Positions 14,218 to 62,966 of a stretch of 64,000 bases of DNA are shown piece after piece. Below the pieces are notes generated by a model. That model was given only the letters and a program-made list of their open reading frames with translations, was not told where the DNA came from and did no database searches. How positions within the stretch are numbered: position 1 is the first letter of the stretch; the number at the start of each line of letters is the position of its first letter. Source of the DNA: Clostridia bacterium (lineage in GTDB: Bacteria; Bacillota; Clostridia; Lutisporales; Lutisporaceae); contig JAQSYD010000001.1 of assembly GCA_029256325.1 (NCBI GenBank), forward strand, positions 1 to 64,000, given 5' to 3'. A program made the translations under genes and the position numbers.

Positions 14218-14885
14218 TATATCAATTCCCTAATTATAACTTTTAATATGTTTGTAAATTGTTTTCCCCGATGAATAAAGCCCCTTATATTGCGCCCCGT
14301 TTCTCTATGTCTGATATTCAAGGGAATATCAACTATTGTAATATCATTGCGCAGGGCTTCCAAGGTTATTTTAAATTCCAACCCAAAGTTATCCGGCAGG
14401 TTTATCTGCTTGAGAAAGTCAGTATAAATAAGCCGCTGACCGCTTAAAACTGAACTAGAGTTTTTAGAGGTCAGCAGATAAAGACTCTTTTGAGACAACG
14501 TCTTGACAAGACCAAAACCGCCCTTGTTCAAAGGCTTCGGGTAAATAGCTACTAGCATGCTTTTTCTGTCCTTATTAGCACTTTCTACAAGTTTTTTCAT
14601 TTCTAAGGCGCTGTTTTTTAAATCAGCATCAACCAACAACACATAATCATTCGTAACAAAGGATAATGCAGATTTAACTGCATGCCCCTTTCCTTTGTTT
14701 ATTGCATGATGAATCACTTTTATATTGTCTATTTTTCTTAATAATTCATAGGTATTATCATTAGAGCCATCATTAACAACTATAATTTCAGTTATTCCAT
14801 TGATTTGCTTTAAAGCTTCTATTGTCTTTTCAATATTTTCACACTCATTGTAGGCAGGCACTATGGCAGTTACATTTTCATCCAA
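14217..14885 (-). CDS. Glycosyltransferase family 2
   Basis: TAIVPAYNECENIEKTIEAL, VVNDGSNDNT, LLVDADLK. Confidence 0.9.
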   Translation of the reverse strand: MDENVTAIVPAYNECENIEKTIEALKQINGITEIIVVNDGSNDNTYELLRKIDNIKVIHHAINKGKGHAVKSALSFVTNDYVLLVDADLKNSALEMKKLVESANKDRKSMLVAIYPKPLNKGGFGLVKTLSQKSLYLLTSKNSSSVLSGQRLIYTDFLKQINLPDNFGLEFKITLEALRNDITIVDIPLNIRHRETGRNIRGFIHRGKQFTNILKVIIRELI

Positions 14886-15919
14886 AGCAAATCACCTTCA
14901 CTTTGCACGTCATGCAATGGAGCATTATTAGCTGATAAAGTATTTAGTTTTTTAATATACTTATAATCGATTAACCGATCTTCAATCTTTAACCTTGTAA
15001 TCAACGTACTGCCCATTCCCTTACGACCTCTTTCCAAAAAATCAGTCATTGAACTATGGCCACCTATCAAGATGATGCTTGAAGCTCCTTTGTCATAAGC
15101 TAACAGTAATGCAATATCTTCACTGGTACCAGGCATAGGCAAAATCTTATATTTTATATTCAAGGACATTATTCTTTCTAAACATGGACAGGTGCCATTT
15201 AGATATGAGTGCAGTATTATTTCTTTGCTTCTAAATATTCCAACATCGGAAACGCTGTCCATATCGCCAATCAGTATATCCGGGGTAAACCCGCAGCTAA
15301 TGATTGTATCGGCGCCTCCATCAACGCCAATTAAAACAGGCTTTTTTATTCCTATAAAATCTTTTAAGGATGCCAATGCTTCTCTGCTCTCTGAGCTCCT
15401 TACAACAACAATTGCACATTTGTCCTTCATATTTGAGTTGATTTTCGGATAATCTGTAAAATTCAATATAAAATCTTTTTCTTTTTCTGCATACTCCAAG
15501 GTGTTATTAATAAAACCGCACAGTAGATTATTGTGATTATAACCACATTCTATGGTACGCTGTTGAATATACTCGTTATTTATCATTTGACAAGAATTAC
15601 TATATAAACAACTACTATTTAGAATTAAGTCCTTGCCCCTTATACGTACAAAATCATTGTCTTTAAAAGCAGTAATCTCTAAACTGGTGTCATAAAGCCG
15701 TATATTGCTGCTTACAAGCATAGAGGTTCCTCGTGAATAATAGCCACCTGTCATTGACTTGCCTGTATTTATAACTGCTTTTAGTCTTGTTTTGATTAAG
15801 GCTTCTGCAGCAAGCTCATCTATATCATCATGCTGTATTACAGCAATGTCTTCAGCGGATAAATATTTTATTAACTCCTTGGTTCTGGTGCCAATTTTGA
15901 CAAATCCTTCTATATACAT
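14870..15919 (-). CDS. steA: Putative cytokinetic ring protein SteA-like
   Basis: Thiamine pyrophosphokinase-like GVDGGADTIISCGFTPDILIGDMDSVSD, N-terminal IGTRTKELIKYL; good RBS. Confidence 0.8.
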   Translation of the reverse strand: MYIEGFVKIGTRTKELIKYLSAEDIAVIQHDDIDELAAEALIKTRLKAVINTGKSMTGGYYSRGTSMLVSSNIRLYDTSLEITAFKDNDFVRIRGKDLILNSSCLYSNSCQMINNEYIQQRTIECGYNHNNLLCGFINNTLEYAEKEKDFILNFTDYPKINSNMKDKCAIVVVRSSESREALASLKDFIGIKKPVLIGVDGGADTIISCGFTPDILIGDMDSVSDVGIFRSKEIILHSYLNGTCPCLERIMSLNIKYKILPMPGTSEDIALLLAYDKGASSIILIGGHSSMTDFLERGRKGMGSTLITRLKIEDRLIDYKYIKKLNTLSANNAPLHDVQSEGDLLWMKM

Positions 15920-16210
15920 TAAATTTGAACACCTCCGCCAATATGTTTTCCACTAGCCATTTATTTTGAATTCATATCGTGTAAAACATTATCATATAAC
16001 CATATGTTGTAAAAAATACTATTTTATAATGTGGAAGCAGATATATCCATTGAGTTGTCTTATAACGTTTTTTTGCAACATATCTATGTTTATTATTAAA
16101 ATAATTTACAAAAATAATACAAAGTAGAACTTGAATATTAATACTTAAAATACAAAAGCTAATAATTAATTAAATTTATACTTTAGATTAAGCTTCTAGG
16201 AGGAAATTTT

Positions 16211-57928: not shown

Positions 57929-57975
57929 AACTAACCTCACATAGTATATTTCGAGTTAAGAATTTTATATGAATC

Positions 57976-58050
57976 AAATAGCTCGAAATGTTATCCTCTG
58001 TTTTAAATCGTACAAAATACTGTTCTATATGTTAAGTTTAGTACAATTTA
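57976..58050 (-). repeat. Intergenic structured repeat, copy A
   Basis: minus TAAATTGTAC...GTACGATTTAAAACAGAGGATAACATTTCGAGCTATTT; matches copy B. Confidence 0.7.
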
Positions 58051-58107
58051 TATACAAAAATGCTCTCATTAATTATATACCTACCCATAGGCTTTGACAA
58101 GCAAACT

Positions 58108-62736: not shown

Positions 62737-62828
62737 CTATAATTTGCACATAGTGACAAAACTTGCTACTACTGTACTTTGCATGATTGTTATCTATATT
62801 TTTCGTGCTAAACAAAGTGCATTCACTA

Positions 62829-62909
62829 AAATAGCAGGTCATGTTATCCGCTGTTTGTAAATCGCACCAAGTATTATATTTTTCAATGTTAAAACTTTAG
62901 TGCGATTTA
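62829..62909 (-). repeat. Intergenic structured repeat, copy B
   Basis: minus TAAATCGCAC...GTGCGATTTACAAACAGCGGATAACATGACCTGCTATTT; matches copy A. Confidence 0.7.
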
Positions 62910-62966
62910 TCTAGTTATATTTTTGGTTATGTTCCCAAAACCTATACGCATTTTAAATTAATAAAA

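Follow-up and report, generated by a model that had tools for sequence, protein, structure and literature searches.

Structured elements upstream of mltG and RNase J

The window, a stretch of 64,000 nucleotides from genome G000, contains a structured element in the 5' leader of mltG, located between a sigma-70-type promoter (TTGTCA-17-TATAAT) and the Shine-Dalgarno sequence of the gene (copy A). A second copy (copy B) is found downstream of the fur terminator and upstream of the RNase J promoter, a promoter-like site. The original prediction had described a minus-strand stem in copy A, TAAATTGTAC...GTACGATTTA, with a single U-G pair, which recurs in copy B as TAAATCGCAC...GTGCGATTTA, and both the sequences and the pairing were as stated. 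The same holds for the tail AAACAGMGGATAACAT-N5-GCTATTT that follows the stem in both copies, a pattern which with up to three mismatches occurs twice in the window, compared to 0.06 occurrences expected from shuffled sequences. No stem followed by a T-run was found in the copy A region, in agreement with the earlier view that the hairpin is not a terminator.

The extent initially proposed (57976-58050 and 62829-62909) was wrong. Alignment of nine genomic copies found by pattern gave a unit of approximately 113-120 bp, which in both copies lies on the minus strand and reaches further on the mltG and RNase J side (Table 1). The predicted "conserved 3' flank" is indeed conserved, but it is not a free flank, as it consists of a linker and the 5' arm ATTTCGAGCTA of a second hairpin (stem 2); the corresponding 3' arm, TAACTCGAAAT, falls beyond the originally proposed coordinates. 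In copy B this 5' arm is altered to ATGACCTGCTA and pairs poorly, leaving stem 2 largely broken. A third, divergent copy carrying a ATATGTTG/CAACATAT stem is situated approximately 20 bp upstream of an ORF at 14870-15919. The folding of copy A is weak (z -0.64 for the short stretch and -1.8 for the full element as DNA); the consensus-like copy L040 folds strongly (z -6.3).

Table 1. Positions of the element copies and their parts in the window (R1 and R2, covariance models of the element and of its right half).
Feature	Position	Strand	Remark
Copy A, whole element (113 bp)	57942..58054	-	R1 match, 97 bits; mltG 5' leader
Copy A, stem 1 5' arm ATAAATTGTAC, terminal TATA just outside	58041..58051	-	
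Copy A, stem 1 3' arm GTACGATTTA	58004..58013	-	
Copy A, linker AAACAGAGGATAAC and stem 2 5' arm ATTTCGAGCTA	57979..58003	-	
Copy A, stem 2 3' arm TAACTCGAAAT, then terminal ATACTA	57947..57957	-	Outside the originally predicted extent
Copy B, whole element (120 bp)	62794..62913	-	R1 match, 115 bits
Copy B, stem 1 5' arm ATAAATCGCAC	62900..62910	-	
Copy B, stem 1 3' arm GTGCGATTTA	62858..62867	-	
Copy B, linker and right half	62794..62852	-	R2 match, 54 bits
Third, divergent copy, 148-bp variant TAGATATGTTGC...TTTACAACATATGG...ATGTTTTACACGAT...GGAAAACATATTG	15939..16086	-	R2 match, 38 bits, E 1.6e-6, filters off

Anatomy and covariation of the element

Overall, the element measures approximately 115-150 bases, folds as two hairpins and is scattered in dozens of copies in a little-known branch of the clostridia. 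Within the genus, the consensus approximates (C)TATATAAATCGCACTAAAGTTTTaACATTnAAAAnAnnnAGTACTTTGTGCGATTTATAAACAGCGGATAACATTTCGTGCTATTTGAtnAATGTAAAATGTTTAGCACGAAATATATAG, with an imperfect terminal inverted repeat, (C)TATATAnnTCGYRCTAAA, at both ends. Each end pairs with its own inner inverted copy, the left end ATAAATCGCAC with GTGCGATTTAT and the right end TAGCACGAAAT with ATTTCGTGCTA, so that one strand folds into two hairpins with loops of approximately 16-35 nt. Of 57 copies, nearly all have (C)TATAT/ATATAG as the foot. Since each end is also an imperfect inverted repeat of the other (CTATATA..TCGCACTAAAG.TTT.ACATT versus CTATATATTTCGTGCTAAACATTTTACATT), the reverse complement of many copies also matched R1, the covariance model built from the nine copies.

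The description of the element as structured was borne out by compensatory changes in the stems. For stem 2, a 50-sequence alignment made without reference to structure, in which related copies are not independent, showed pairing in 90.9% of the cells, and both sides had changed in 66 cells, compared to 18.8 cells after shuffling and 0-8 in slid versions. One-sided changes of the G-U (wobble) type were present in only 2 cells, which would suit base pairing in DNA better than in RNA. Stem 1 retained at least 10 of 11 pairs in 60 of 73 copies, with 18 distinct arm sequences, and has gained mismatches in the orthologues of copy A. The broken stem 2 is common to three G000 copies (copy B, L011 and L013), two of which occupy sites where sister species lack the element; the second stem therefore does not strictly have to be intact. 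These three copies and L292 form a subfamily in which GACCTG replaces TTCGTG in the stem 2 5' arm, so that the break is shared, and another genus shows the same swap. Members of this subfamily can instead form a small hairpin, AGCGG-N9-CC(T)GCT.

Copy number and distribution

Searches of this genome and of other Clostridia with the covariance model yielded further copies, and the element proved to be dispersed, as originally predicted, with dozens of copies per genome in the genus. R1 gave 20 matches in G000; with stricter filters, 16 were retained in G000, along with 41, 76, 1 and 69 in the genomes G001-G004 of the same genus, among them the Clostridia MAG L_E1_T20_C_bin.41 (G001) and Clostridiales bacterium GWB2_37_7 (G002). 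Variants, many of approximately 150 bp, were present in two further genera of the family. No R1 copies were detected in four other genera of the family or in 19 sampled genomes of other families. Lutispora falls within the wider kinship of the element-bearing genomes.

The model of the right half, R2, was built from 50 diverse copies and additionally detected copies in two other families of the class, represented by three genomes (G103 and G127, and G125). When applied at E 1e-5 to 298 other genomes across the phylum, a set in which the known positives happened to be missing, it found copies in none besides G000. A weak match in G115 (L348, G115:C9:409-474) consists of a pair of TGTTTCACGTGAAACA-like palindromes, and related loci contain ORFs resembling Soj/ParB homologues; the match most likely represents parS sites and thus a false positive of R2. 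No match to the element was obtained in the phages and plasmids searched or in one exact pattern scan of the genome contig collection. Rfam gave no matches in the window at the gathering score, and a permissive search of eight loci reached a best E of 0.15, which is at chance level. In the literature collection searched, no description of this element family was found.

Insertions and element-free orthologous sites

The site of copy A is filled in G000, G001 and G002 and empty in G003, where the mltG leader reads CATTTTTAAAGTGTGAGG without the element. (The mltG gene of GWB2_37_7, L143/L145 on G002:C84, matches in two separate pieces and may be frameshifted in the assembly.) Copy B is present in G000 only, and its flanks are found without the element in G001, G002 and G003. 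For five further G000 copies, searches with the joined flanks revealed a contiguous orthologous site in sister genomes that was empty or nearly so. Thus, for all seven insertions tested, one or more sister species have an element-free orthologous site, and no target was duplicated. At the five further sites, the junctions match the model boundaries within a few nucleotides, with the reservation that the exact base loss is uncertain where the alignment across the junction is loose (L012 and parts of L015). A systematic test of 57 copies revealed no target-site duplication either, and no conserved target tetranucleotide was found in the flanks. One empty site reads TATAT, but a TATAT target duplication was rejected, as the other empty sites lack this motif.

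Some of the element-free sites could in principle be losses. Gain is favoured because copy B occurs in a single species and because near-identical copies (L078 and L079) reside at unrelated sites in G002. Two or three striking G000 cases of insertion into terminator loops were also noted, but in 73 copies such insertions were no more frequent than in the shuffled or shifted controls. The copies often abut start codons; the ratio of 25 sense to 15 antisense, obtained with a loose criterion, is not a convincing orientation bias.

Variable interiors between constant ends

At least eight elements in G002 (L301-L308) are 217-bp mosaics of four hairpins, in which the same ends enclose two extra inner hairpins, AAGGCTTCT..GAAGCCTTTT and ATGCATGG..ATGTTCC..TATGCAT. 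In G004, another repeat, GTCATTCTGAnCGnTAGnGAAGAATCTTA..GGGGTCGTTCCCTACAGGATGACAATAGT, lies inside the same ends (L119, L314 and L316-L320), and among these elements L119 measures 199 bp and L319, which amounts to two fused ends, 38 bp, both without inner stems. Some copies are reduced to a solo or truncated right half, and others carry internal deletions. That the same ends surround such differing interiors indicates that it is the ends that are recognised and that the sequence between them can vary freely. At G000:C112:15149-15268, one right half follows another in tandem, with 2 bp between them.

Candidate mobilising enzymes

None of the copies examined lies next to a transposase gene, and the neighbouring genes are unrelated, with none that recurs beside the copies. 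Twenty regions around lone ends, most of 5-7 kb and from draft genomes, contained no autonomous element with these ends. Y1 (PF01797) proteins were found in all six copy-bearing genomes first searched, mostly RAYT-like and of approximately 300 aa; RAYT-like proteins of this size occur in G000, G001, G002, G004, G014 and G018. Judged by length and resemblance, without a tree, they were assigned to RAYT group 1 (subclass 2.1), which has no known REP partner (PMC6006769). Similar proteins (L082-L101 and L258-L284) are common across the family with no associated repeat, and some of its genomes hold several divergent RAYT-like copies each.

No element copy was located within approximately 1.5 kb of any examined RAYT gene, and an R1 search of 24 Y1 loci returned one match, at chance level; the copies accordingly do not flank a RAYT (tnpA-REP) gene. 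G008 and G011 carry copies with no detected Y1 gene, the Y1 matches of G103 and G127 are of the IS200 type only, and no RAYT-type protein was detected in the copy-bearing G008, G103 and G127. RAYT-like genes are also present in element-free genera. A correlation between Y1 or RAYT proteins and the elements was therefore rejected, as neither Y1 type tracks element presence.

Nature of the element

The original prediction had favoured a structured RNA or regulator-binding element as the likelier reading, and here it was wrong. A cis-acting leader, of riboswitch type or similar, or a regulator-binding site would agree with the strong covariation, with the many copies near start codons and with copy A following a promoter in the mltG leader of three species. 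On the other hand, the insertions are species-specific, fall beside unrelated genes and abut gene starts in both orientations; copy B lies outside the transcribed leader, one-sided G-U changes are few, stem 1 of the copy A orthologues carries mismatches, and no Rfam family matches. Taken together, these observations make a regulatory role for the element very improbable. The element has the look of a novel type of genomic hitchhiker, and less that of a switch controlling the adjacent genes. Copy A must alter the mltG leader and may change mltG expression as a side effect; selection for such an effect gains no support from the orthologous copies with their stem mismatches. The original prediction had named an insertion-element end as an outcome that would overturn it, and this came closest to the truth, except that the whole unit, and not an end alone, forms a miniature mobile element.

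We consider it likely that the element is a non-autonomous, REPIN-like miniature mobile DNA element that is moved in trans. Both ends carry a common terminal inverted repeat of 20-30 bp, (C)TATATA-(stem arm)-TAAA-n-TTTACATT, and one strand folds into two separate hairpins with single-stranded TATAT feet and the conserved linker A-CAG-GGATAA between them. A transposase encoded elsewhere would recognise these ends and move the unit into intergenic DNA without target duplication. Movement probably occurs as single-stranded DNA: the two hairpins, the lack of duplication and the near absence of G-U intermediates in the covarying stem together suggest that the folded strand is recognised, possibly by an enzyme of the HUH type, as for IS200/IS605 and REP elements. 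As a counterpoint, a double-strand (DDE-type) transposase would also be compatible with the long terminal repeats taken by themselves. A classical MITE would have arisen by deletion from a DDE-type insertion sequence with a CTATAT... terminal inverted repeat and be moved in trans by its transposase, with the inner copies serving as extra transposase-binding sites and not as hairpins. The 20-30-bp repeats on all forms and the stemless 199-bp and 38-bp forms, among other interiors within the same ends, are in line with such an origin, but it appears unlikely, as target duplication is absent from the 57 copies and from the orthologous empty sites and no full-length element with these ends was found near lone ends. 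Double-sided covariation further implies that arm pairing matters, though paired protein sites could also produce it. That the element is a genuine REP/REPIN system moved by the group 1 RAYT proteins of these genomes seems improbable to us. The paired inverted hairpin units, the solo units and the availability of group 1 RAYTs without a known REP (PMC6006769) in six genomes would all fit; however, the examined RAYT genes lack nearby copies, copies are present in genomes with no detected RAYT-type protein and RAYTs in element-free genera, and the hairpins have long loops and no GTAG or GTGG foot.

Relation to known mobile elements

Bacterial MITEs (Correia/NEMIS, RUP and similar) are short, non-autonomous, intergenic elements with terminal inverted repeats and modular interiors. 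The present element is alike in all of these respects, but differs in the absence of target-site duplication and in the inner complement of each terminal repeat, and no parent insertion sequence was found in the regions around lone ends. Resemblance to REPINs/BIMEs (Bertels & Rainey 2011, PMC3116915) extends to inverted hairpin-forming ends, extragenic location, many copies, an alternative two-hairpin fold, single-unit remnants, compensatory changes and the lack of an internal transposase. In contrast, the element is AT-rich, its unit spans 113-217 bp, no examined RAYT gene is flanked by copies, and its loops of approximately 16-35 nt exceed the 2-5 nt (or bulged stem) of REP hairpins. Its TATAT foot also departs from the REP/REPIN definition, which calls for a 5' tetranucleotide, GTAG or GTGG, within 0-2 nt of the foot of the hairpin (PMC6006769). 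With the ends of IS200/IS605 (TnpA Y1; PMC6006769) the element shares subterminal hairpins and the lack of target duplication, but its ends are mutually inverted, tnpA is absent in and beside the examined copies, and no conserved target tetranucleotide was found in its flanks. The element is thus outside the tested definitions of both REP/REPIN and classical MITE. It is possible, albeit doubtful, that it represents a new family of folded single-stranded DNA miniature elements in several families of Clostridia, defined by structure and TATAT feet and not by stem sequence, inserting without target duplication and served by a transposase without a linked substrate (possibly a group 1 RAYT or a new enzyme).

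Small dispersed hairpin elements have been best described in proteobacteria, and a clostridial family with a differing foot, loop and insertion outcome would widen the concept of REPIN-like replicators. It would also offer a concrete substrate for testing the uncharacterised Y1/RAYT proteins of Clostridia. For genome annotation, the element serves as a caution that a structure which covaries and lies next to a gene may be a mobile element and not a regulatory RNA.
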